Source: Gari tellinella (taxonomy: Eukaryota; Mollusca; Bivalvia; Cardiida; Psammobiidae). Taken from it: DNA of 64,000 bases. The stretch is taken from the NCBI GenBank assembly GCA_922989275.2, contig OV277869.1:40966189-41030188 (forward strand). The letters run 5' to 3'. A model generated the notes under the pieces. It did not search any database. It was not told the DNA's origin and saw only the letters and a program-made list of their open reading frames with translations. Made by a program: the position numbers and the translations under genes. Of this stretch, positions 1,380 to 64,000 are shown piece after piece; positions within the stretch are counted from its first letter, which is position 1, and each line of letters begins with the position of its first letter.

Positions 1380-2537
1380 TCACGGGTCGGACATTAACCC
1401 GGGCCGAATAATGTAATCTCCATCGCTACACAGTAAGTACGTTAAATCTATCGTAGAGACATGAATAGTCCGGCTGGTCGAGTGGTCTAAGTGCGAATTT
1501 TCTTCTGTAAGATTGTCCTCTAATTGTTTAATTTTTTTAAGTAGGTCTGTTTCTTGTTTATTTATTTGTTTCTTTTTATAAGAGCCATAAGATATAGATT
1601 CCCCCCTGATTTCCATCAAAAGAGTTTCCAAGAACAGATCATCTGGTATCGTAAACTGTATGTCACTGCAATGTATATTATTGATGTTATCCAAATTATA
1701 AACAGGAATACAATATTGAGTCTTTATCTGTTTAATCTTAATTTGAATTTGCTGGACATATTGTAAATCATTCAATAAAGAGTCATTATGTTTCCATAAT
1801 CCTTTACCGTGATGAACGTTTGTAAATAGCATGTTTAATTTTACAATAGAATGATCTGAGTTCAGACTTGGCTCTATTTCACATGACTTTGAAAACTGTA
1901 CCAAGTCTTCTGTAACGAGAAAAAAGTCTAAACGTGCCTGTTGAATTGGACGAGTACGTCGCCATGTAAATCTCTTTTTGTCTGGGTAGAGGTCGCTATA
2001 TATATAAACTAACTGTCTATTTTGTATATTTTCAAGTATTATATTTCTAGCGTTTTTGTTGTTAATTGTTTTGTAATTCTTGTAGTCCATTTGAGGGTCT
2101 ATAATACAGTTAAAATCTCCGCATATTATATATGAATCATTTCCAAATTCATCTATAATTTCGAAAATGTTATTAAAGAAACCCGGATTATCCCGGTTTG
2201 GTCCATAGAGACTTACCAGTGTACATTTAAAATCATCAAAAGTCAGATCTAAAATGACAAAGTTGCCATCTTCATCGCATACGCTTCTGTTAATATTTAC
2301 TTTAATGTTATTATTAAAAAGAATAGCAACACCTATTGAACTAGATGAAAAACAACTGAGGTATACTTGTCCATTCCATTGTGAGTAAATTTGCTTTTCT
2401 TGGTCGCTTGTAAAATGAGTATCCTGAAGGCAATAAATATGACATTTTTGATCTTTAAGGTGCTTGAATACATCTCTTCTTTTTGTGTTGCCATGGAGCC
2501 CACGACAATTTAATGATAATATCTTAAGATCACCCAT
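1380..2537 (-). pseudogene. LINE ORF2 endonuclease domain, lacking the reverse transcriptase
   Basis: This 385-codon frame starts at an ATG and opens with the start of an apurinic-like endonuclease domain (SLNCRGL, Asn10). It continues with CLQDTHF (acidic residue Asp39), SLYGPN, ICGDFNCIID near residue 140, RLDFFLVTEDL, and SDHSIVKLNM near residue 228 with the catalytic Asp-His pair. This order is that of L1/Tx1-clade non-LTR retrotransposons, which nick target DNA for target-primed reverse transcription. After about residue 350 similarity stops and the frame runs into unrelated DNA. No RT domain follows, so the copy is 3'-truncated, the reverse of the usual 5' truncation. The domain itself has no stops, so the copy is fairly young. 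Confidence 0.85.
1462..1490 (+). other. tRNA A-box-like sequence at the LINE break
   Basis: CCGGCTGGTCGAGTGGTCTA resembles the 5' third of a tRNA-Leu/Ser-type tRNA (internal promoter A box). It ends where the endonuclease reading frame loses its homology. It may be the head of a tRNA-derived SINE that broke or was broken by the LINE. No B box was seen close by. Confidence 0.35.
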
Positions 2538-2686
2538 TAATTATGTAAAAGTATAAAGTGAAAACAAGTAAAGATGAAGTAGCTACAATAATAGAGGCAT
2601 GTCTTCTACTAACGTGCAGTTTAGATAAGCTAAACTGGGAACAAAAACTAAGTGCGTGCATCCCGATTCAAGTATCTAAATAGTTC

Positions 2687-34790: not shown

Positions 34791-36045
34791 ACAACATTTT
34801 CAGCAATTTTCAGCAACTTTGAAGCACTTTGAAACTTGAAGCAGAAGAGAAATATAGCAGACGACAATTTATTTGGCGGGCTAAGGGTTAAATAAATATT
34901 TACATTCGCAACATTCAGATCCATTGTAAACGCTATTTTTCGAAAAAGCGGGACTTGTGGATAAGTTTCGCAGAGTAGACGGGGCATATGTATTTTCCAT
35001 TCGCGAACTAATCTTTGGAACTTGGATAGCAAACATTTGGCGGGTTTTTCAAAAAAATGTTTTTCACCGATGTAATTCTTCCTTTTAGCGGAAAGCATGA
35101 TGATCGACTAAAATTCTTCTTTACTAGTGACATAAACTGCAAGAAAATTGATATACCTTAATATTCATAGCAGCTGTCTGCATTTCTTTATGACAAAAAT
35201 CGCTATATTTATCCTACTTTAAAAATGACGTCACTTACAAACGACGTCAAATCGGCATTTTCGCGCCAAACTGTTAAGTTGTTGACATTGGAATGTAAAC
35301 AAAGGAACTTATGTTTTTGCTTTCGAATGCACACAGCTTCAGTAATTCGGCAATGGCTGTTCCTTATAGGGTACACATTATTCGTGTTATCAACCTCTAA
35401 TATTGATTAAACATTGATAAAACATACATGCGTACATGTACTAACAAATTGTTCATTTGATACAGATGTATTATAAATTACAGCAAATATATTGTAAATA
35501 TCAGAAATGAACTGATTTTTAGGCGTTCAAGCGAAATAAACGACAGAAGATTACGGCAAATTTACAATGAATCGCTAATGCGATTCATGGTTTTTGCCGA
35601 TAATTTGGATAATCAAGATCACCTTTTAATCCGTATACGACGGGCAATGCAGTGTTAGGTTATGTCAAATTACTTAAAACAATGGCCATGTTCTTAAAGT
35701 AGAATATATATGGCCGGTGAATGGCTTCAAATAGAAATTAAACTTCGCGATTTGAAAGGGTAAAATATAATTTCTATAGGCTATTTTCAGATGATAATCT
35801 TATAATGTACAGTAGCGAAAACGTTATTCTTTCCAAATAAACGTGTTTACGCTTAAAATATTAATTCCATTGCAAACAGTTTGGAGCTAGATCAGGCTAC
35901 ATGATTTGCCACTCACATTAGTGAATAGTTAGAATTGTTAATAAGATGTAATTATATACATCTTTTACAATGCGTTTGCGTGTATCTTGCGTTTTAACTG
36001 GACAGGATAACGTCTTCTCCACTGTATTTTATTTTCCTTTTTCAG
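34791..36045. other. Sulfotransferase intron 2, 3' part; no gene seen
   Basis: AT-rich with no coding signal. A partial AAACAGTTTGGAGC hairpin arm lies at about 35,874-35,915 and a small inverted pair, ATGAATCGC/GCGATTCAT, near 35,567-35,588. Confidence 0.45.
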
Positions 36046-36826
36046 ACGTATTACGGATTCGTACTTAAAGTTACTCCGGAGGGAGGAGTTACATGCATTG
36101 ATGACGTGTAATTTGGAATGGTATCCATACGAGTTGGCCATTGATATTTTGCACTGGAGGAAGATAAGGTCATTAGCTTCGCTTTCAAACTGCTCACATG
36201 GGAAAACGATCCAAGAAACACACACATGCATGCGTAAAATTCAAAAACGGTGTTTAACCGCACCGTTACGGATTATTAAATTCATTCGACTGAGAATGCC
36301 GAATGTTGAAGAGTTAATTGAAGAGTATCCTCATATTAAGTTTATTCACTTAGTAAGAGATCCAAGAGGAAACGCTTTGTCGCAATCGGCAAGGAAAAAA
36401 CCTGGTGGCCTCAAGAACATTTCTTCCGAATACTGCCATATGGTAAGAGAGGACTCGCTAGAGAAAGCTCGAATATTTCAAAACTATCCTGACCGAATAT
36501 ATACACTTAGATACGAAAGCATTGCAAACTTTCCTTTTAGATACGCCACAGAATTATTACACTTCATAAACCAAGGATTGAATTTAACAGAGGGCATGAC
36601 GCAGTATATTGGAAAAATCACTCTGTTTGGTAAAGCCAAAACATGCCCATACTGTGTTGAAAGGGGAAATAGCAGTAAAACGGCTTCTAAATGGAGAGCT
36701 GTTATTGGAAATGATTCATTTAAAGACATCAATGAAGTATGCGGAAGCATTTTAGACATTTATGGATACACCAGGTTTCAAAACATTAGCGACGTGCGCA
36801 ATTTAACAATCCCATCAATGTTATAA
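36046..36826 (+). CDS. Carbohydrate sulfotransferase, coding exon 3 (catalytic C-terminus)
   Basis: Acceptor TTTTCCTTTTTCAG (AG 36,044-36,045). The exon supplies the third base of codon 86 and runs to TAA at 36,824-36,826, giving a 345-residue protein. Residues 185-198 (FIHLVRDPRGNALS) are the 3'-phosphate-binding motif with Arg190, Asp191 and Ser198, the second PAPS contact of Golgi carbohydrate sulfotransferases. Cysteines at CNLEW, CSHG and CPYCVERG fit disulfide-bonded lumenal enzymes, and NIS/NLT sequons near the end fit N-glycosylation. Expected role: transfer of sulfate from PAPS to a 6-hydroxyl on a Gal or GlcNAc residue; substrate and family number cannot be fixed. It is slightly shorter than vertebrate relatives (about 390-480 aa), and it has introns where many vertebrate homologues have a single coding exon. 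Confidence 0.92.
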
Positions 36827-51013: not shown

Positions 51014-51256
51014 ACCCATTACCCAATATATATGCCTTTTTCCTTTAAATTATTCCTCCACTGAAGAAAATACTTCCTATTTATATAGTCATGAACATTT
51101 TCTATTAGAAATATTTTCTGTATTCTAGCAGATAAAGCTTAAAGTAGGCTGAGAGTAAAGCAGAATGCGCCTGAGGGCGCATTTTGCTTTACTTTCAACC
51201 TGCTTTAAGTGGTCACCTGTCTTCAAAACTAGAAACTGGCTATGGGGTAATGGGTT
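51014..51256. repeat. AAGTAAAGCAGAATGCG foldback MITE, well-preserved copy
   Basis: Outer ends TTAACCCATTACCC / GGGGTAATGGGTTAA; centre AGTAAAGCAGAATGCGCCTG and AGGGCGCATTTTGCTTTACT. This copy best shows that the outer ends are inverted. Confidence 0.85.
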
Positions 51257-51558
51257 AAAGAATAATATATGAGCCGTGGCATGACAAAACCCGTCTTATT
51301 GCATTGCAACATTGTACAGACCAAGCACCGTTGTCGTCACAAGCTGTGCATTTGAGTTGGGTCTACATTGCCAAATATCGTATATAATATACATGTAGCT
51401 ACATAAAAGGCTGATACATGTACACTTGCGGGTGTCAAAAATGCTGATCAAGACCAGCCGCCTTGTCAAATCTCCACTGTTTGCAATGCAAGAAGTCGGG
51501 TTTTCTCATGGCACGGCGCATAATGTTGTAAGGAAATAACAGGTTTTATCTAAATTCA

Positions 51559-54724: not shown

Positions 54725-54891
54725 CTGTTTCGGTTGTTGTACAGTCCCGTCATTGCTGTTGGTAACGTTGTTCTGTTTCAGGTGGCTACACTTGGATGAC
54801 CAGCGGGCATGTTCAGACCATGGATTGTCTCCCCTTTGCCAGTTTTTCAAACCCACGCCACAGCAGTAACATCTCGTGAAGTCTCGGATTC
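54725..54891 (-). CDS. Inhibitor-of-apoptosis gene, exon with 3' half of a BIR domain
   Basis: Minus-strand acceptor TCATTTAAAG (AG 54,893-54,892), donor GTTTGT after CAG (exon end 54,725). It begins with two bases of a codon (phase 1), then 55 codons. [17 protein letters not shown] and [16 protein letters not shown] are the zinc-binding half of a BIR domain: the C-x2-C pair, His in SEHARW and Cys in SSKC. BIR domains bind caspases or IAP-binding-motif partners. The N-terminal half of the domain must lie on an earlier exon, which I could not find between 54,892 and the viral cluster. The gene may be complete with upstream exons beyond 61.8 kb or outside the window, or it may be a truncated duplicate. 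Confidence 0.8.
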
Positions 54892-55100
54892 CTTTAAATG
54901 AGAATTAAAAATTTTACGGTAACAAATTCTATTAATATTAGGAATTCTATTTATGGTACACCGGTTTTACAAAGCTTTTTTGTAGTTGTGTCCCTTGTTA
55001 TAATTGGGGGAGATTTCGGTACACATTTGTACTCTAATACCTTTTGTAATTGATAAATCATTTCCAGTCAAACCCGTTCATACAAAAATACTTACATATA

Positions 55101-55452: not shown

Positions 55453-56850
55453 CTTTATTGTAAACATTTTCGAGCCTGATCAGATACATCGGTGGCTGAT
55501 CAGGCTTCATAGTGTATGACGCACACATATTTAAATAAAGGCAACACTCTGCTTAGCACAATTTGTCGTCTGATTCAAATATATCGTCTGCGAAAGTAAA
55601 TCAAATTGGTGTTTGTTAAAAGATGAGTGACAAACAGTTTGGATCAAGATCTGGGCCCAAATGGTTTGCAAATGTAAGCCAAGTCGCGCTTAGCACGATA
55701 AGGGTTACTTAAGCTATATGAACTGTCTTTTTATAGAGGATCTTACATGAGTGCTCATTATTTATCATTTTTAATAAACGAGTTGACTAAAACAATATGA
55801 CGCGAGCCTTGGCGAGCTTCATATTTATTTTAGTCAACGAGTTTATTAAAAATGATAAATAATGAGCACGAATGTGAGATTCTATTTATCACATAACAAG
55901 TTTAAGCACCTATTAAATTGATTGAAGCCGTAGTGTGTAGACCCTCCGCTATATAGAATTTCCGCCAAAACGTTACGTTGTTTACCCTAACGTCATAGTA
56001 AATGACGTCATTTGGCATCCCGCTACATGCAGCGTTTGTGGATGAACAAGTTGGGCCGGAGCCCAAAAAACGATATTCCACTAGTGGATTACGATATTTA
56101 TACAATCGCTTTATGCAACTCCCAGACCGCAAATTATGTGATAAAAATATTTATTACATTACGTTTTTTTAATGGAAATAATAATGAAACTTACAACGTA
56201 AGTGCATAGTACTACATACTTTCTTGGAAATCAACTCTCAATACATAGAAGAAGCGAAAGTGAGGCCAATGAATTGGTCACATGGGTGTACCTTGGCTCC
56301 TAGATTATAAAGCGTTTGAGTTGAGTCCAACATCGTTCTCAAGCATTTAATTGGTCAGACTGGAGCTCTGCTCCACTCTGACCAATCAAGTGCGTGCGAA
56401 CGATCTCAGACTCAACTCAAACACGCTTTATAACCTTGGAGCAAAACGAGCAATGCCAGTAGTATTAGGGTCGGTTTGGTTCCAAATAAATCGACGCCAT
56501 TTTGGATGACCTACTTTTCTAAAAATAGGATAAACACGTGGGTCTATATATAGCCCAGGGTGAAGGTCTTGTGGGGGTAGCCATATTGGATTTGGGTTTG
56601 AACGGGAAAAAAGCGGCCATTGTGAATTATTGAATTTTCACCAATCTGGGTCTACACGGTATACAGAACTGACCTGTTAACGATCTGTTAAGATAGCCAG
56701 GGACATTGAGCGTCAGGTTCTTCCCTATCAGAGGCGAATCTTAGAGGTGTTGCATATAACGTGTGTTCACATCGATGTTTTCAGTTCAAATGACTGAGAT
56801 GTTTCTCCTTCATGCGCGGATAGAGGGCGCAATGTTTAAAATGACAGCAT
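55453..56850. other. Foldback-rich spacer left of the viral cluster
   Basis: Hairpin-family relics lie at about 55,473-55,515 and 55,632-55,672. A ~160-bp foldback at about 55,727-55,890 pairs GAGTGCTCATTATTTATCAT with its complement. A ~145-bp foldback at about 56,305-56,450 pairs TTATAAAGCGTTTGAGTTGA with TCAACTCAAACACGCTTTAT. No BIR N-terminal exon or other coding signal was found on either strand. Confidence 0.6.
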
Positions 56851-57026
56851 CGCTATATTTAGCTGGCCGGTGTTACAAGTATTGCATCAGCCGAGAAAAG
56901 GCCTAGAGCATTAACCCCCGACCAGGGAGAGTCCGAAAACACATTCACTCCAGGAAATGGCAGTCAGGCGTACTATTTTACAAGTCCAAACATGTCTGAT
57001 TCCATCAAAGATCCATACATGTATGT

Positions 57027-57036
57027 CTATAAATAG
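57027..57036 (+). promoter_or_regulatory. CTATAAATAG motif upstream of the PC4-like gene
   Basis: Fits the MEF2-type consensus YTAWWWWTAR. Exact copies lie upstream of the next two viral genes (57,634 and 58,291). Confidence 0.4.
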
Positions 57037-57068
57037 AAAATGACGTTATGTTTGCCCACTCCAACTGG

Positions 57069-57076
57069 TATATAAG
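57069..57076 (+). promoter_or_regulatory. TATA box of the PC4-like gene
   Basis: TATATAAG, 56 bp before the ATG at 57,125. Confidence 0.75.
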
Positions 57077-57124
57077 AGTGTAGGCAACAGTAATATTCAT
57101 TCACAGTTACGCGCATCGTACAGA

Positions 57125-57613
57125 ATGGATAACCACTCTAGCTTTGCCTTGGGGAATCAGCGATACGTAAAAGTGACTGAATGGAAAGGCGAAGTGAGAG
57201 TCGATCTAAGAGAATGGCTCAATGATAAACCCAGTAAGAAAGGCATCAGTTTACCCTTAAGGCGGTGGAAAATTTGGGTCGACTGCATCGAATGCTTAGA
57301 CGAAGCCTTGGCAGAGAAGAAACACTACAGTAGTCACTTGGGAGGCAACGTTTATTGCACAGTAGACGAGGGCAGCGTGTGTGTGAGCATTAGACAATAT
57401 TGGAAACCACAGGACGAAGTGGTGCCGACTAAGAAAGGCTTGTGTTTAAGACCCAACGAATACGCCAAATTGAAAGAAATGATACCGGTCATAGGAAAAC
57501 AATTGCCTGAATTGAACTCGATTGTACCCTGTTACTTGCAGAGCGATCATATGAACCAGTTGGGCGCTTTGCGATGCGCCGAGTGCAACCCCAATTCACA
57601 CGCGGACTGGTAA
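57125..57613 (+). CDS. Tandem PC4-like ssDNA-binding coactivator (virus-like cluster)
   Basis: 162 residues, no intron. Two PC4/Sub1-type domains lie in tandem. In the first (about residues 7-62) RYVKVTEWKGEVRVDLREW is followed by KKGISLPLRRW. In the second (about 70-130) VSIRQYWKP is followed by TKKGLCLRPNEYAKLKEMI. The basic KKG turn plus aromatic/leucine pattern is the ssDNA-binding face of PC4, a RNA polymerase II coactivator that also acts in replication and repair. Cellular PC4 has one domain and dimerises, so two in one chain could form an intramolecular dimer (inference). A CAEC pair near the C-terminus may bind metal. First of four plus-strand genes; the frame is open and the TATA box lies just upstream. 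A role in viral transcription or DNA replication is inferred. Confidence 0.82.
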   Translation: MDNHSSFALGNQRYVKVTEWKGEVRVDLREWLNDKPSKKGISLPLRRWKIWVDCIECLDEALAEKKHYSSHLGGNVYCTVDEGSVCVSIRQYWKPQDEVVPTKKGLCLRPNEYAKLKEMIPVIGKQLPELNSIVPCYLQSDHMNQLGALRCAECNPNSHADW

Positions 57614-57633
57614 TATCCAATCTGACACGGTTA

Positions 57634-57643
57634 CTATAAATAG
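57634..57643 (+). promoter_or_regulatory. CTATAAATAG motif upstream of the BIR gene
   Basis: Second exact copy of the motif, 36 bp before the TATA box of this gene. Confidence 0.4.
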
Positions 57644-57669
57644 TCCACCAATCAGAATGGAGACAGCAG

Positions 57670-57677
57670 TATAAAAA
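57670..57677 (+). promoter_or_regulatory. TATA box of the BIR gene
   Basis: TATAAAAA followed by GGC, 54 bp before the ATG at 57,724 and only about 57 bp after the preceding stop. Confidence 0.78.
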
Positions 57678-57723
57678 GGCAGAGGTGACTAAGATCCACT
57701 TCACTCTTCACTGAAACACCGAT

Positions 57724-58134
57724 ATGAATACTACAGATGCTTGTCTGGTAAACAACATGTCCCAGAACAAGTATTACGAACATAGACTGAAAACGTTTGA
57801 CAGTAACTGTTGGCCAAAACAGATGATTCCTAACAAATACGACTTGGCGAAATGCGGGTTCCTATACGCGGGTCACGGCGATCAAGTGAGGTGTTTTCAA
57901 TGCGGTGTCGGTCTACGTGATTGGGAACGAACGGACGACCCCTGGAAAGAACATTACAAATGGAGCCCAAACTGTGATTATTTGAAAATGGTTGGGTGGA
58001 ACGATAACGTCAAGGTAGCCGACGTAGGATTTGGACAAGTTACCAAACCACCCAACAGTGGCTTTGGATTTGGAGTCACTCTGACAAAATCCCAGAAACC
58101 CTTTGGACCTAATACAAACTCAAATTTATTCTAA
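57724..58134 (+). CDS. Single-BIR inhibitor-of-apoptosis-like protein (virus-like cluster)
   Basis: 136 residues, one BIR domain at about 21-87: HRLKTFDSNCW opens it, GFLYAGHGDQVRCFQCGVGL and DDPWKEHYKW carry the core, with zinc ligands Cys57, Cys60, His77 and Cys84 all present. No RING or CARD follows; the last 45 residues are low-complexity, rich in Gly, Phe and Lys. BIR proteins are known accessory genes of several insect and aquatic dsDNA viruses, where they block or redirect cell death. An alternative ATG at codon 12 (57,757) would leave the domain intact. The host IAP BIR exon at 54.7 kb is of the same class but clearly different in sequence. The anti-death role is inferred. Confidence 0.9.
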   Translation: MNTTDACLVNNMSQNKYYEHRLKTFDSNCWPKQMIPNKYDLAKCGFLYAGHGDQVRCFQCGVGLRDWERTDDPWKEHYKWSPNCDYLKMVGWNDNVKVADVGFGQVTKPPNSGFGFGVTLTKSQKPFGPNTNSNLF

Positions 58135-58204
58135 ACTGTCCATGGTGTTCGTTTTGTAATATCAATGTATTGTACGATGTTATGTAATATTGGCGCTATA
58201 TCGA

Positions 58205-58210
58205 AATAAA
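58205..58210 (+). terminator. Poly(A) signal after the BIR gene
   Basis: AATAAA about 70 bp after the BIR stop codon. Confidence 0.65.
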
Positions 58211-58290
58211 CATTAAATCTATTTTATGCACTTGTGATTTGTCCAATTACCAGAGAGAGAGAGCGAGAGAGAACATCCTCTGACGTAGTT

Positions 58291-58300
58291 CTATAAATAG
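58291..58300 (+). promoter_or_regulatory. CTATAAATAG motif upstream of the death-domain gene
   Basis: Third exact copy, 89 bp before the TATA box. A GAGAGAGAGCGAGAGAGA tract lies just upstream. Confidence 0.4.
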
Positions 58301-58379
58301 ATAAACAGGTCTGGGCATGTATCAGTCAGATAAATGAGTGTAGCCAATCCCTATTCTTTTGATGACGTCATACAAAGCG

Positions 58380-58387
58380 TATAAAAA
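58380..58387 (+). promoter_or_regulatory. TATA box of the death-domain/TBP-like pair
   Basis: TATAAAAA followed by GAGACG, 53 bp before the ATG at 58,433. It is the only TATA box seen for the two ORFs that follow. Confidence 0.75.
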
Positions 58388-58432
58388 GAGACGTTTCTGG
58401 TGCCACAGTATCAGTTTGACCTCGAGAGTACC

Positions 58433-58807
58433 ATGAGTAACAATCAAAGTATCGAGCACAGTACTTTAACAGACGACGAGTTGCTACAGTATTCTAAAGA
58501 ACTCGGATTTAACTGGCAGCTCTTTGCGTTTCAGCTGGGTTATAAACTAACTCAAATAGACGCTTTGAAAAAGACATACTCTCAACATTACCAAACGTTA
58601 TTGTATGTGATGCTGTTTAAGTGGTACGAAACAGTGGTAAATTGCTCCAAAGAAAATCCGAAGTGGCTTCTAGCGGCCGCTTTTTCACGCATCGACGACC
58701 AATGTACTGCCCTAAAGATTTTGGGGAGTTTTGACTTGATAAACACTGCGAAAACGCTCCGACCTTGTGTAGACACTGAACGTCATATACGTCAAATTCG
58801 CTTTTGA
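58433..58807 (+). CDS. Small death-domain protein (virus-like cluster)
   Basis: 124 residues from the first ATG, which has A at -3 (good initiation context). The open frame extends upstream only to a GTG at 58,400, so 58,433 is preferred. Almost the whole protein is one six-helix death-fold domain: LTDDELLQYSKELGFNW (helix 1), FAFQLGYKLTQIDALKKTY (helices 2-3), LLYVMLFKWYETVV (conserved Trp64) and WLLAAAFSRIDDQCTALKIL (helices 5-6). Death domains form homotypic assemblies in death-receptor, FADD, MyD88/IRAK and PIDD pathways. A stand-alone domain could act as a decoy or adaptor; that role is inference. CARD or DED cannot be fully excluded by eye. The stop is 9 nt before the next start. Confidence 0.75.
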   Translation: MSNNQSIEHSTLTDDELLQYSKELGFNWQLFAFQLGYKLTQIDALKKTYSQHYQTLLYVMLFKWYETVVNCSKENPKWLLAAAFSRIDDQCTALKILGSFDLINTAKTLRPCVDTERHIRQIRF

Positions 58808-58816
58808 GAAAAGAAA

Positions 58817-59326
58817 ATGATCACCAACGTTGTGGTGATGACCGAGACACATTGTGACATTGATCTAACAGTGCTAACCCGTAAAACTGAAAATATGATA
58901 TACGATCCAGCCCGGTACTCCGGTGCCCAATGGAAACATCGAAAGATAGGTGGACATTGCATGGTGTTTTCTACCGGAAAGTTAATGATCAACGGAAAGG
59001 TCCATTCTATTACTGATGCCAAACGGAGACTTAGACGTTATGCCAGACGCATTCAGCAACTAGGTTGGCCAGTCGCATTATCTACCATTCAAGTGGTGAC
59101 CGTATCGGCTTCTTTCAAAGTTGAGGGACCTTTAGACTTACCGACAGTGGTTAAATATTACAAAGGACAGTACGACCCCGAGTTGTTTCCGGCGGCCATG
59201 TTTACTAAAGACTCTATTCATTTTACATGTTTTCACACTGGATCCGTACTAATGACCGGTATTAAACGTCAATGTCAGTTGAACGATATTTGTATACCCG
59301 TATTGATAGAATTACCCTTATTGTAA
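58817..59326 (+). CDS. Divergent TBP-like protein (virus-like cluster)
   Basis: 169 residues, the size of a bare TBP core, with two pseudo-symmetric repeats. Repeat 1: YDPARYSGAQW, then CMVFSTGKLMINGK and RRYARRIQQLGWP. Repeat 2: YDPELFPAAMF, then TCFHTGSVLMTGIK. These are the saddle signatures of TATA-binding protein. Of the four aromatic positions that wedge into the TATA box, three are Phe (51, 124, 139) and the fourth is Tyr34. It is far more diverged than any metazoan TBP or TRF I know of, and it lacks the usual N-terminal tail. It probably binds TATA promoters, perhaps those of this cluster (inference). No TATA box of its own was seen; the start lies 9 nt after the death-domain stop. 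Confidence 0.88.
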   Translation: MITNVVVMTETHCDIDLTVLTRKTENMIYDPARYSGAQWKHRKIGGHCMVFSTGKLMINGKVHSITDAKRRLRRYARRIQQLGWPVALSTIQVVTVSASFKVEGPLDLPTVVKYYKGQYDPELFPAAMFTKDSIHFTCFHTGSVLMTGIKRQCQLNDICIPVLIELPLL

Positions 59327-59379
59327 AGTACGATCGGTGGGACCGCCCTAATCCCCGACGTACTGTATTGAACGGGGCT

Positions 59380-59385
59380 AATAAA
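59380..59385 (+). terminator. Poly(A) signal after the TBP-like gene
   Basis: AATAAA about 54 bp after the TBP-like stop, within CTAATAAATAG. Confidence 0.6.
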
Positions 59386-59498
59386 TAGATCAGTCCATTA
59401 CGATTTGTTTGTTTTGATTCCAATTCAAAGAGAGAGAGACAGACAGACGTAAAGAAAAAATAGGATATCCAAAACAAAAACCCAACAAATGTGCTTTC

Positions 59499-59513
59499 TT
59501 TATTCGCTTTATT
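59499..59513 (-). terminator. Poly(A) signals of the packaging ATPase gene
   Basis: Two AATAAA hexamers on the minus strand (59,504-59,499 and 59,513-59,508), about 175-190 bp after the ATPase stop. They face the plus-strand signal, so the two gene blocks converge here. Confidence 0.6.
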
Positions 59514-59685
59514 TATACAAGACAAACAAAACATGTGTCCCATTTACAATATGTTACAATGACCAATGACAGCATCACCAATATTTACAAATATTCCTCA
59601 ACAAAGTAGCGAATTTCACTTCTTCAGAAATGTTTTACAAATAAATTGGTCGTCGTCAGTAACATCAAACGTGGTTTTTCCGGTC

Positions 59686-61140
59686 CTATCCGTACACCGG
59701 AAGTCCCGGAGGTATCATAGAAAAGTCTGGTTCAGGTACTGCTGTGAGGGGCCTCTTCTTAATGGCTCGTTGGTGATTCTGCTCGGAAGTTGACACTTTT
59801 CTTCGACGTTTGACTAATGATCTGGTCATGGGCGTCTTTCTAAAGCCCCTTCTTTTATTCTGAGCGGAAGTCGTCTCCTTTCTTTGGCGTTTGACTAATG
59901 ATCTGGCCATTTCGATATCTTGGGCGATGGGTGTTACCCACGGGATAGACCTTCGACCCGTGTCCTTCACACGGCCATAACCAGTTTGCATGTCTTCCAC
60001 TATATAGTGTCCCTTGTGATTTGGTTTTACTTTTCCTTCAGCCATTCTTTGGAAATGTCTTATCCACTTATCGACTGCAGGGCTTCTTTGTGAGGAAAAT
60101 TTATCCTGATCCATATCTTCATCTTCCTCAAATCCTTCCCCGATAATTCCATCGTCTGAATCATAGGATTCTGTGTCGTCCTCATCAAGATTCGCTTCAT
60201 CATCGAACTCGCTCTTATTTTCGTCCGTAAGCCTGTGTCGGTAGGGCATCGGGGCTTCGTCGTCCGCGGTACCTTGTGTTTTTATCGGACACCAGGTTTT
60301 GACGTGCCTTTGCAAGTGATGAATATTAGATAATATTGCTCCGCAATCGTCACACGTGATTCTAATGTCACCCTGTGTTAGGCTGTGGATAGGCGCCACT
60401 GACTGCTGAGTCTGTGCTTTCGACGGGTCGGTGAATCTGGTTGTTTGGACCCTAGCTTCGGTTGTGTCTCTTATATCATTCAGGACACGGTTGCGCATAC
60501 GTAGAGACTCCAATGTGGTCGGTTTCAAATCGATCAACAAGTACCCGTAAGGTCTGCTGACGGCCTCTTCGAAGCGCCGTAATAGCGTCTGAGAGTTACT
60601 CGGGTACATTTGTCTGGCCAATGTCATCACTTGCTGTTTGTCTATGGGATTGTTGAAAAGGACCAGATAATGGCAGTTGCGTCTCTGGGTTGGGTCTTTA
60701 CTATAATATAGGTTCTGGTTGAGAGCGATGACCGACAAATTTCTATGGTGGCTGCCTTCCGTAAAGATATCCGTGACTCTAGGGTCTTTGGCCGCCTCCG
60801 ACGCCATATCGTCGAGGACTATTAGGTTTCTCACTCGGGTGTCGAGAAATTCATCCTTCTCTAGATTCCACGGGACGCCTCGCATAAATTCGACCGCAGG
60901 AAAGACGGACGTTTGTATGACGTCGTAGAGAGGCTGCCATCTTTTGTACAACCAAATAATGCGTTCAGGAGAAGGTTGAATGCGTTGTTGAGCGCTCTGA
61001 AGCAGTTGGGATACAAAATAAGTCTTGCCACAGGCCGTTGGTCCTGACACGATACAGGTAAAGGGGTGCTTTAAAGCAAATGGCAATTGTTGTTGTTGTT
61101 GTTGTTGTTGTTGTTCGTCTTGTTGTTGTTGTTCTTCTTC

Positions 61141-61175
<35 letters not shown>

Positions 61176-61281
61176 GCTGTTGGTCCTTAGTGTCAAGTAT
61201 ACCTTTGTGTTTATGTTTCCTGTGTCGTTTCAAACTGTCCAAATAGGCGTACGAGTTGTGGCAGAGGTTGCAGGGATACAT
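59686..61281 (-). CDS. HerA/FtsK-type DNA-packaging ATPase with zinc fingers and polyglutamine
   Basis: 531 residues, minus strand. Order: C2H2-type finger (Cys4, Cys7, His20, His25); glutamine-rich tract about 34-66 encoded by near-pure CAA; P-loop GPTACGKT at 80-87; Walker B LIVLDDM at 153-159; an ALNQN sensor-like motif near 186; DPTQRRNCHYLVLF; then a second finger-like C2HC (Cys310, Cys313, His326, Cys331), an acidic stretch of about 30 residues, and a basic tail with two similar RSLVKRxRK blocks. The ATPase core matches the packaging ATPases of Polintons, adintoviruses and relatives, which pump DNA into the capsid. Those are commonly 200-300 residues, so both flanks are additions. It converges on the plus-strand block and is the best evidence for the cluster's viral nature. 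Confidence 0.88.
61085..61190. repeat. CAA/TTG trinucleotide repeat inside the ATPase gene
   Basis: Interrupted (TTG)n on the plus strand, encoding polyglutamine broken by Glu and Asp on the minus strand. Plus-strand Cys- and Leu-rich frames here are its shadows. Confidence 0.92.
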
Positions 61282-61328
61282 TCTCGTTGGTATAGATAAC
61301 TGATAATACTGTCAACAACTCTCTCCCT

Positions 61329-61336
61329 CTTATAAA
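61329..61336 (-). promoter_or_regulatory. TATA box of the packaging ATPase gene
   Basis: TTTATAAG on the minus strand followed by AGGGAGAG, 48 bp before the ATG at 61,281. Confidence 0.72.
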
Positions 61337-61372
61337 CTTTGGTCATTTCTCTGAGCCGGATTTGTACAATAT

Positions 61373-61723
61373 TTACTCTTCGCTGATCATTTGCGCTCGT
61401 CTGGTTTCGTCCGCGATAGTTACTATGACGTAACGTTCTCGTAAGATGACGGGTATCAAAGAATGATGTAGTCTTAGTAATGTCTTTTTTCTGGACACGT
61501 TGACGCTTTCACTAGCCAGTGTTCTCAATAGTCTCCGTTCTCTCGCGAACGTTTGGCTGTCGCGTCTTAGGGGATTGATAGTCCCATCCACGATACGTTT
61601 GATAACTTCGCTAAGGGCTTCGGTTTGACGCCACGTCATGTTTCGGAGCAATTGTCTCCGACCTCTCATCTCCCTCAAGGCCGTCAAGAAATTAAAATGT
61701 CTATAGACTCTAGAGTGTTCCAT
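61373..61723 (-). CDS. Small arginine-rich protein upstream of the packaging ATPase
   Basis: 116 residues with more than twenty arginines, predicted mostly helical and with no cysteine. Regions with RRQLLRNMTWRQTEAL, LRRDSQTFARERRLLRTLAS and SRKKTLLRLHHSLIPVILR give a pattern I associate with small basic proteins encoded near capsid or packaging genes of Polinton/adintovirus-like elements in aquatic animals. A virion core or DNA-condensing role is possible but unproven. The start ATG at 61,723 follows its own TATA-like box. The stop is 92 bp before the ATPase ATG, in the same direction. Confidence 0.65.
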   Translation of the reverse strand: MEHSRVYRHFNFLTALREMRGRRQLLRNMTWRQTEALSEVIKRIVDGTINPLRRDSQTFARERRLLRTLASESVNVSRKKTLLRLHHSLIPVILRERYVIVTIADETRRAQMISEE

Positions 61724-61760
61724 CGTGGTGATGGTGCGTTATAGGGATGTCGTAGTACCT

Positions 61761-61768
61761 CTTATAAC
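61761..61768 (-). promoter_or_regulatory. TATA-like box of the arginine-rich protein gene
   Basis: GTTATAAG on the minus strand followed by AGGTACT, 37 bp before the ATG. Similar in form to the ATPase box (TTTATAAGAGGG). Confidence 0.6.
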
Positions 61769-61790
61769 ATACATACATACAAACTTTTAT

Positions 61791-62545
61791 TGAGAGTTTT
61801 TTAACGAGCTTTACAGGTGAATGTCTATTTTTGTTGTTTTATTATGAATTATCGAGTATTAATTAATGTATTTGGTATCAATTCAGAGTAAAACTAGTTC
61901 AATAGAGCGATTTCTGGATTTAAAATGATGAAATTGTGATGTTTACACGTTATTAGAAAAAATTGATGTTTCTGCTAGAAAACTTTCCTAATAGTTTTTT
62001 AACGAGCTTTACAGGTGAATGTCTATTTTTGTTGTTTTATAATGAATTATCGAGTATTAATTAATGTATTTGGTATCAATTCAGAGTAAAACTAGTTCAA
62101 TAGAGCGATTTCTGGATTTAAAATGATGAAATTGTGATGTTTACACGTTATTAGAAAAAATTGATATTTCTGCTAGAAAACTTTCCTAATAGTTTTTTAA
62201 CGAGCTTTACAGGTGAATGTCTATTTTTGTTGTTTTATAATGAATTATCGAGTATTAATTAATGTATTTGGTATCAATTCAGAGTAAAACAAGTTCAATA
62301 GAACGATTTCTGGATTTAAAATGATGAAATTGTGATATTTAGACGTTATTAGAAAAAATTGATATTTCTCCTAGAAAATAATTCTTAATAGCTTTTTAAC
62401 GAGCTTTACAGGTGAATGTCTATTTTTGTTGTTTTGTAATGAATTATCGAGTATTAATCAATGTATTTGGTATCAATTCAGAGTAAAACCAGTTCAATAG
62501 AACGATTTCTGGATTTAAAATGATAAAATTCGAACATTTTGTGCA
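61791..62545. repeat. 198-bp tandem array, four units
   Basis: AACGAGCTTTACAGGTGAAT starts at 61,803, 62,001, 62,199 and 62,398. The first two periods are exactly 198 bp, the third 199. Units are nearly identical; the fourth is the most diverged and breaks off near 62,530. It abuts the viral cluster's right edge. No coding capacity. Confidence 0.93.
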
Positions 62546-62900
62546 TTTTATGCCAATACTGTACAATGGGGATTGCTGATGAGTTAATGACTTTTCAATC
62601 TGTGACTTCTGACCGTGCGAGCGAGATCGCCATAGTTACTGTTTTTTTATGGCTAAACCTTTAACATGCTAAGTAAACTGTGGTCTGCAGCATGTTGTTA
62701 TTTGCATTTTATGATCAAATATCCATTATTCATCTGTATGTTTAATATCAATGTGTACTACCACTAGATTGTTACATGTCTAAAGTCAAGCATATCAAAT
62801 GATCAACTTAATAAAAAGGATAATGTACACATTGTGTGACAAAACATGGGGGGAGTTCAGTTAAAAACTTTGTACTTTAGCCCCCTAATATATGGGAACG
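62546..62900. other. No gene seen
   Basis: AT-rich spacer between two tandem arrays. Confidence 0.4.
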
Positions 62901-63735
62901 CTCACAGCTCACAAAGAAAGAGGGTTTTTCGCGGTAGGTTACAGCAAAACGGTTTGAATTTTTTCAGTCAAGGCTCATTCGATCTGCTTTACTTGCAACC
63001 TGCTTTTAAGTCGTCATCAGTCTTCAAAACAAGAAAACATGCTATGGGGTAAAGGGTTAAGGAAATGTATTAATACTCTACATGTGCTTAACCCTGCTTT
63101 AAGTATTCATCTGCCTTCAAAGCTAGAAACGTACTATGGGGTAGTTTTAAAAAAAACGTGTGTTGCACGGACTGTGTCAGCAGGATAAAGGTTGCATCAA
63201 AACGGCTACAATGTGTCAGTCAAAGCGCCTTCTGCTTTACTTTCAGCCTGCTTTAAGTAGTCATCTGTCTTCAAAGCTAGAAACGTACTATGGGGTAGTT
63301 TAAAACACGTGTGTTGCACGGACTGTATCAGCAGGATAAAGGTTACAGCAAAACGCTCAGAATGTGTCGGTCCATGGGCATTATTCTGCTTTACTTTCAG
63401 CCTGCTTTAAGTAGTCATCTGCCTTCAAAGCTAGAAACGTGCTATGGGGTAGTATTAAAAAAAACGTGTGTTGCACGTACTGTGTCAGCAGTATAAAGGT
63501 TACAGCAAAACGCTCAGAATGTATCGGTCAAGGCGCATTCTGCTTTACTTTCAGCCTGCTTTAAGTAATCATCTGTCTTCAAAGCTAGAAACGTGCTATG
63601 GGGTAGTTTTAAAACACGTGTGTAGCACGGACCGTGTCAGCAGGATAAAGGTTGCATCAAAAAGGCTACAATGTGTCAGTCCAAGCGCATTCTGCTTTAC
63701 TTTCAGCCTGCTTTAAGTGGTCATAGATATGGGGT
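62901..63735. repeat. ~154-bp tandem array from an AAGTAAAGCAG-family MITE half
   Basis: TTTCAGCCTGCTTTAAGT starts near 63,241, 63,395, 63,549 and 63,701, with ACGTGTGTTGCACGGACTGT and CATTCTGCTTTACTTTCAGC in each unit. It contains one half of the foldback MITE seen at 51.0 kb, amplified in tandem. The array begins and ends with GGGGTAAAGGGTTAAGGAAA. Confidence 0.85.
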
Positions 63736-64000
63736 AAAGGGTTAAGGAAATGTATAAATACACTACCTGTGTTTAACGTCAATTACAGTTTTGTTAAAAA
63801 TCTACAGCAAAACATTGAGATGTGTGTATAATGCTACAGAGAGAGAGGGGGACCCTAATGAGATAATGAGTTCCCCAGGCTCCCTGAGAAACGAATTGGT
63901 CCCTAACGACCTGTTAGAAGTGAAAACAGATGTCTGCCTCATGCTTACTGTGTAGTTAAAGTCTAAAACCGTGAAATTTTACATGTACAGTAATTCCTCT
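63736..64000. other. No gene seen
   Basis: Non-coding; a GAGAGAGAGGGGGA patch near 63,838. Window edge. Confidence 0.35.

Follow-up and report, generated by a model that had tools for sequence, protein, structure and literature searches.

Gene content of the locus

A cluster of six genes was analysed in a stretch of 64,000 nucleotides from the bivalve Gari tellinella (GenBank assembly GCA_922989275.2, contig OV277869.1, positions 40,966,189 to 41,030,188 of the forward strand), hereafter termed the window, to which coordinates refer unless a locus or contig is named. An earlier note on this stretch had described six intron-less frames at 57027..61768 and had recognised among them a TATA-binding protein (TBP), a tandem PC4 protein, a BIR protein, a death-domain protein and a packaging ATPase. 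All six are present as uninterrupted ATG-to-stop open reading frames (ORFs), and the five domain assignments hold in Pfam (Table 1). The genes do occupy that interval, while the mobile element that contains them is larger, extending from 56458 to about 65408. Counted in 2-kb bins, GC content amounts to 41-43% between 56 and 62 kb and to 32-40% elsewhere in the window, where the right arm of the element (62-64 kb, 36%) belongs. Frames of 75 residues (59566-59793) and 93 residues (59262-59543) inside the element were taken as spurious.

Sequence matches to solved structures were obtained for the four regulators. The PC4 protein matches 1pcf (1.7e-7), the BIR protein matches the BIRs of NAIP (1.8e-32), and both repeats of TBP align with the human protein (2.4e-16). 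In that alignment, Phe occupies three of the four positions that we take to be the DNA-intercalating phenylalanines, and Tyr the remaining one. The death-domain protein matches solved death domains only at 0.0019 and its predicted structure is poor (pLDDT 48), so the assignment rests on sequence; a homologue with 65% identity occurs in a second family of small elements described below. The TBP gene starts 9 bp 3' of the death-domain stop and the 160 bp upstream of it contain no TATA box.

The 531-residue protein is a predicted packaging ATPase of the FtsK/HerA type. It comprises an N-terminal C2H2 finger, a polyglutamine (polyQ) tract, a P-loop core in which the motifs GPTACGKT and LIVLDD can be read, a second C2H2 finger and a C-terminal region whose Polinton homologue is a small ORF of its own (residues 403-496, 47% identical to L034:676-942). 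In structure searches, which the earlier note had proposed as a check, the model of the ATPase core (pLDDT 85) has adenovirus IVa2 as its top match in a viral structure library (4.6e-5), Foldseek returned no match to it in the PDB at 1e-3, and the death-domain model was the poor one mentioned above. ORF6 has no family match in Pfam.

Table 1. Features of the element inside the window, with their positions and supporting matches.
Feature	Position	Strand	Remarks
Left terminal inverted repeat	56458..56931	+	Starts AGTAGTATTA; 99.6% inverted match to L029:1024-1497 (= 64935-65408)
PC4 promoter-like stretch	57027..57078	+	CTATAAATAG 98 bp and TATATAAGAG 56 bp 5' of ATG
Tandem PC4 (transcriptional coactivator p15) protein, 162 aa	57125..57613	+	PF02229 1.8e-23, two stretches
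BIR promoter-like stretch	57634..57678	+	CTATAAATAG 90 bp and TATAAAAAG 54 bp 5' of ATG
Single-BIR protein without RING, 136 aa	57724..58134	+	PF00653 8.6e-24
Death-domain/TBP promoter-like stretch	58291..58388	+	CTATAAATAG 142 bp and TATAAAAAG 53 bp 5' of death-domain ATG
Death-domain protein, 124 aa	58433..58807	+	PF00531 1.1e-5, 25.9 bits vs cut-off 22.6
Two-repeat TBP, 169 aa	58817..59326	+	PF00352 7.8e-22
Packaging ATPase (predicted), 531 aa	59686..61281	-	Pox_A32 1.9e-5, Adeno_IVa2 4.6e-5 (Pfam)
ATPase TATA-like box TATAAGAG	61327..61334	-	53 bp 5' of ATG
ORF6, 116 aa	61373..61723	-	57% identical to the ORF between ATPase and PolB of Polinton locus L034
ORF6 TATA-like box TATAAGAG	61759..61766	-	43 bp 5' of ATG
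198-bp tandem repeats	61795..62530	+	Within 61795-62936, 98.5% common to PolB flank L035
154-bp tandem repeats, right arm	63093..63724	+	Unit number varies among copies
Right arm, element runs on to about 65408	63725..64000	+	Colinear in fetched copies; right end in L029

A complete element with Polinton-type ends in which no core Polinton frame was found

The complete element spans 56458-65408 (8951 bp), its right end lying beyond the window in L029. Its termini are 474-bp inverted repeats that are 99.6% identical (AGTAGTATTA...TAATACTACT, with AG...CT ends), and both flanks carry a perfect 6-bp target duplication, AATGCC (left copy at 56452-56457). Terminal inverted repeats of hundreds of base pairs, AG...CT ends and 6-bp target duplications form the integration signature of Polintons (Mavericks). 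The viral origin and the Polinton kinship suggested in the earlier note are supported.

Searching the genome for the ATPase gave 90 matches from the best 81 of 876 candidates; at least 47 of them are full-length (531 residues) with 93-100% identity, and 37 of these are stop-free. In 14 of the 16 near copies of the ATPase locus (L009-L024, compared with the window by alignment) the left boundary of homology falls within 1 bp of 56458, and on the right the homology runs towards or beyond the window end. Seventeen copies, the window included, were examined for duplications: all nine in which both ends are visible have perfect, mutually different 6-bp duplications, and the other eight could not be evaluated in the fetched pieces. 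TBP is broken in three copies (L018, L022 and L023) and ORF6 is shortened in L014. The window element is complete and, with dozens of near-identical copies, was probably mobile until recently. Parts of its 154-bp repeat unit recur outside the element, near 51138-51265.

According to PMC4028283, the hallmarks of Polintons are a protein-primed PolB and an RVE integrase, capsid proteins and an adenovirus-type protease. A scan of frames of at least 70 residues to the window end, and of at least 40 residues in 61700-64000 and L029:1-1500, found no PolB, integrase, protease or capsid frame between the termini. Something else must therefore move the element, and the earlier note was mistaken in calling the cluster self-contained. 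Its idea of a module for transcription and death control was sound, the putative functions being those that the domains imply.

PolB-bearing Polintons with the same termini

PolB-bearing Polintons with near-identical ends co-reside in the same genome. A DNA search with the termini of the element revealed at least 16 paired ends and eight single ones (best 40 of 309 candidates). Three pairs, 16.2, 16.6 and 19.4 kb in length and with termini 96-100% identical to those of the window element, contain PolB, four hold the ATPase of the window type, and nine (3.7-7.8 kb) have no match to either ATPase or PolB. The one of these nine that was read (L037, G000:C8:14729204-14732908, 3.7 kb) is a snap-back palindrome with arms of 1237 bp at 99.8% identity and a protease in each arm, a product expected of linear replication from terminal repeats. 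Pairs of opposed ATPase frames of 431-450 residues, 1-2 kb apart, at C15:58504218/58505746, C1:120219713/120221216 and C3:22940261/22941411 are possibly further snap-back elements.

The 19.4-kb element (C19:6985533-7004935) carries PC4, BIR and TBP at 100% identity to the window, one BIR indel aside; full-length PC4 frames of 100% identity occur at 23 loci, these two included. The distance from TBP to the terminus is 2859 bp, compared with 2868 bp in the window element, and since the spacing of BIR and TBP equals that of the window, a death-domain gene likely lies between them. Beyond TBP lie an adenovirus-type protease (Peptidase_C5 2.6e-4, its 21.2 bits just under the curated cut-off of 21.3) and a frame at the capsid position that has no family match and whose end overlaps L034 at 100% over 126 bp. 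The module is not unique to the window element.

Another Polinton locus (L034) encodes PolB (1.6e-49), an ORF6 homologue (57%), a C2H2-ATPase of 310 residues, an rve+chromo integrase (2.7e-12) and further frames. Its flank, L035, shares 61795-62936 of the window at 98.5% identity, the 198-bp repeats included; the termini of L034/L035 lie outside the fetched pieces. The conventional ATPase of the L034 type was found at 30 loci at 96% identity or more, 28 of which have PolB within 10 kb. It is only 35% identical to the ATPase of the window element. That element matches the Polinton sequence up to about 59597 and again from about 61795; the segment in between holds the ATPase and ORF6 that are its own.

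The window-type ATPase has a PolB within 20 kb at none of 78 loci, relative to the best 79 of 275 PolB candidates. Those gave 129 PolB matches at about 64 loci, away from this ATPase, many of them frames of 1597-1599 residues. This count used 78 of the 90 ATPase matches (12 fragments beside used matches were left out), 60 of 77 for TBP, 43 of 150 for BIR and 64 of 129 for PolB, the latter omissions being mostly second pieces of the same loci. Among the 60 ATPase loci of at least 90% identity, TBP lies within 5 kb in 42 and BIR within 6 kb in 33. Another ATPase group (49-81% identity) has PolB within 10 kb at 6 of 18 loci.

A second family of small elements

Four further ATPase loci (L025-L028, about 62% identity) belong to elements of 5.8-8.2 kb whose termini are unlike those of the first family (ACTACAAATACG or ACTACAAGTGCG, 781-992 bp, 99.5-100% identical). 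Perfect 6-bp duplications flank three of the four, which are those with both ends found. L027 and L028 encode the ATPase and an ORF6 97-98% identical to that of the window, L025 and L026 the ATPase and a death domain (64-65%), and no core Polinton frame, PolB-like frames included, was seen at any of the four loci. The fused ATPase is 55-62% identical between the families, and its tail, which resembles the small separate Polinton ORF, is common to the window and L025-L028; of 345 homologues of the ATPase, 120 were listed, some of them fragments, and none of these matched the tail. A protein beginning MNTWDYYFDLF... is encoded at L028:2725-3543 and also in L025 and L026, is duplicated in L026 and L028, and has no Pfam match above cut-off.

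Between the families, the ratio of nonsynonymous to synonymous change (dN/dS) is 0.07 for the ATPase core, a rough value as synonymous changes are near saturation (proportion of synonymous differences, pS, 0.71), 0.13 for the full ATPase (against L025) and 0.31 for the death domain. ORF6 also has a ratio of 0.07, at a dS of 0.11; compared with the near-saturated ATPase, this low dS indicates that ORF6 was exchanged long after the ATPases split. For young copies of the first family, ratios of 0.12-0.24 were obtained with ORF6 and the cargo genes, on very few changes and from 12-17 intact copies of each gene.

Promoter-like sequences

A TATA-like box lies 43-56 bp 5' of all five ATGs other than that of TBP (background 0.44 per 160 bp), at 57069, 57670 and 58380 on the plus strand and at 61334 and 61766 on the minus strand, and CTATAAATAG is found upstream of all three plus-strand units (four in the window against 0.2 expected). 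By eye, two further motifs stand 5' of TATA boxes: TGACGTCA at 58363-58370, directly before the box of the death-domain unit, and TGACGTTA at 57041-57048, before that of PC4. TGACGTCA is presumably a CRE/AP-1-like palindrome; the two motifs may link the promoters of the element to host stress signalling.

The regulator module outside the window element

Besides the PolB-bearing C19 element, whose termini match those of the window element, diverged element families of the genome also contain PC4, BIR and TBP. A BIR frame lies within 3 kb of PC4 at 71 of 84 loci, namely 33/33 close loci, 8/16 at 55-69% identity, 24/27 at 35-37% and 6/8 at 33-34% (84 of 104 PC4 matches and a selection of about half of the 150 BIR matches were used). 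The conventional-type ATPase was found within 16 kb at 41 of 43 PC4 loci (42 of 51 diverged ones plus C19; 75 of 132 ATPase matches), and TBP homologues of 39-43% identity have PolB within 20 kb at six further loci. More than 20 loci such as C7:73108413 and C3:7843455, with near-identical PC4 (244 residues) and BIR (180 residues) frames about 1 kb apart and an ATPase of 232 residues about 5 kb off, represent another abundant element family.

In other data sets, TBP and PC4 homologues occur on contigs of equal length (7320, 3644 and 3466 bases), which suggests, indirectly, that the two are linked there. The named sources of homologues are the bivalves Mercenaria, Pinctada, Ruditapes, Mytilus, Mactra, Solemya, Pecten, Mizuhopecten and Mya and, as sole non-bivalve, a bacterial bin labelled Sedimenticola.

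To the right of the element, L029:5432-6826 (C14) holds a frame of 464 residues that matches PF00653 in two BIR stretches (1.6e-21) and may be an inhibitor-of-apoptosis (IAP) gene of the host; with BIR fragments matching at window 54770-54907, C14:41089329 and C14:41122335, it indicates that the element sits in an IAP-rich stretch. Elsewhere in the window, a LINE-type endonuclease frame (1380-2540, minus strand) and a sulfotransferase-like frame (36011-36826, plus strand) were noticed by eye.

Interpretation

Taken together, the observations indicate, at a probability that we put at roughly 60%, that the six genes are those of a Polinton satellite that is complete, was mobile until recently and depends on a helper. 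Because the ends are shared, a helper PolB would copy the satellite from the common terminal repeats and a helper integrase would insert it, while a helper capsid would carry it. The satellite's own diverged packaging motor, with ORF6, would direct helper capsids to satellite DNA; packaging by this motor is the proposed step with the least support. Host RNA polymerase II would be recruited to the TATA promoters of the element by TBP and PC4; a loop in which the viral TBP, helped by PC4 as coactivator, serves the virus's own TATA promoters is plausible. The BIR and death-domain proteins would delay cell death: from what is known of the domains, a BIR without RING suggests binding to caspases or adaptors, and the death-domain protein suggests a decoy adaptor. 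The regulator cassette is exchangeable, being present in one PolB-bearing Polinton and absent from some satellites.

Several results weigh against the satellite interpretation. Another ATPase family (37-39% identity, 27 loci) likewise lacks a listed PolB within 10 kb at all 27 loci; given this control and the fact that only the best 79 of 275 PolB candidates were scored, the 0/78 count alone does not prove separation, which is established end to end only for the elements read, and our confidence is slightly lowered. Apart from the roughness of the core ratio and the weaker constraint on the death domain, young ATPase copies of the first family have a dN/dS of 1.25, with no purifying selection (of the variable codons, polyQ included, 45 have nonsynonymous changes and 17 synonymous ones only). 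The putative helper capsid gene is assigned by position alone, and in C19, the sole PolB element in which the cassette was found, an insertion of about 1.1 kb interrupts the conventional ATPase, so that this copy may itself be broken. TATA-like boxes precede only 3/6 frames in L034 (PolB, ORF6 and ATPase; 35-54 bp) and 2/6 in the second family (40-51 bp), and the promoter rule is thus not general. Nor is the cassette essential, since five of the 16 fetched copies (L010, L016, L018, L023 and L024) lack part or all of PC4-BIR-death domain-TBP. Finally, IMG/VR scans with TBP, PC4 and alignments of TBP and of the ATPase revealed no free viral relative.

Some of these results would also be expected if the element were an ordinary deletion derivative, a Polinton that lost its core and kept functional ends, its genes being hitch-hikers that are intact only through youth. 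The ratio of about 1.25 in young ATPase copies, the existence of copies without the cassette and the nine small same-ended elements without ATPase or PolB match, the one read being a snap-back palindrome such as defective replication would yield, all fit this explanation, which is unlikely on balance and still the most serious competitor. It is opposed by two families with different termini that have the fused ATPase in common and conserve its core, and by the satellite ATPase being just 35% identical to that of the Polinton with which ends and arms are shared, so the satellite is not a simple deletion of that Polinton. A multipartite Polinton, in which polymerase/capsid and ATPase/regulator elements depend on each other, would account for the shared termini and for an ATPase found apart from the listed PolB genes, but is improbable as the PolB elements have an adjacent ATPase of their own (28/30) and should not need the small element. 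That the genes are a host cluster or domesticated viral genes can be dismissed: the domains are typical of host families, and IAP and PC4 expansions in bivalves are reported in PMC7831173 and PMC9223095, but in place of the ordinary host genes in conserved order for which the earlier note had allowed, dozens of loci spread over many contigs have the same cluster within elements flanked by target-site duplications, which contradict such an origin.

The satellite interpretation would have wider consequences. As the copies are young and near-identical and putative helpers share their genome, dependence on a helper can be tested in a living animal, and through a virus-borne TBP and PC4 an animal DNA element may itself supply part of the machinery for RNA polymerase II initiation. 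In the hard clam, 51 of 159 IAP genes lack introns, as do 42 members of a clade of 49, which was read as retroposition (PMC7831173); a scallop paper describes PC4 as expanded in most bivalves, with two of five PC4 genes of the bay scallop being single-exon (PMC9223095). As PC4 frames in G. tellinella have a BIR frame close by at most loci (71/84), elements of the present kind may, in our view, change how such expansions are read.

Comparison with known systems

The accessible parts of the open-licence literature (e.g. PMC11071296, PMC11071308, PMC8905726) describe no Polinton satellite and no animal Polinton with both TBP and PC4; sporadic TBPs are reported from green-alga viral elements without PolB (PMC10675990). 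The element shares with Polintons (polintovirus, adintovirus-type) the terminal inverted repeats, AG...CT ends, 6-bp duplication, a packaging ATPase and the minus-strand ORF6-ATPase order of L034. It differs in its length (8.95 kb, not 15-20 kb), in the missing PolB, integrase, protease and capsid frames, in the diverged fused ATPase and in the PC4, BIR, death-domain and TBP genes. The adintovirus hallmarks, a PolB clade and adinto-type capsid genes, have no counterpart, as no PolB or capsid frame is found in the element.

Transpovirons and virophages are small linear DNAs with terminal repeats that depend on a larger DNA virus. For the present element, the putative helper is a Polinton and not a giant virus, and no helicase or capsid frame was seen. 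Non-autonomous DNA transposons and defective interfering genomes have ends that are recognised in trans and lack core genes; the snap-back element with the same ends (L037) recalls them, whereas the window element keeps six intact genes and an ATPase core that is conserved across two families.

Phage satellites such as phage-inducible chromosomal islands (PICIs) integrate, use helper capsids and have their own packaging function and transcription control. The element would work alike, the takeover of packaging being only proposed, and would differ in its animal host, its target duplication and the ends that it shares with the helper. Phages have well-known satellites that carry packaging genes of their own, but we know of none for animal Polintons. 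Tentatively, and with less than even confidence, we propose that these elements are an animal-virus counterpart of phage satellites: an integrated lineage that would live on Polintons, change helpers by switching termini, redirect helper capsids with a motor of its own, drive its TATA promoters through a viral TBP and PC4, block cell death and trade its regulator cassette with Polintons.

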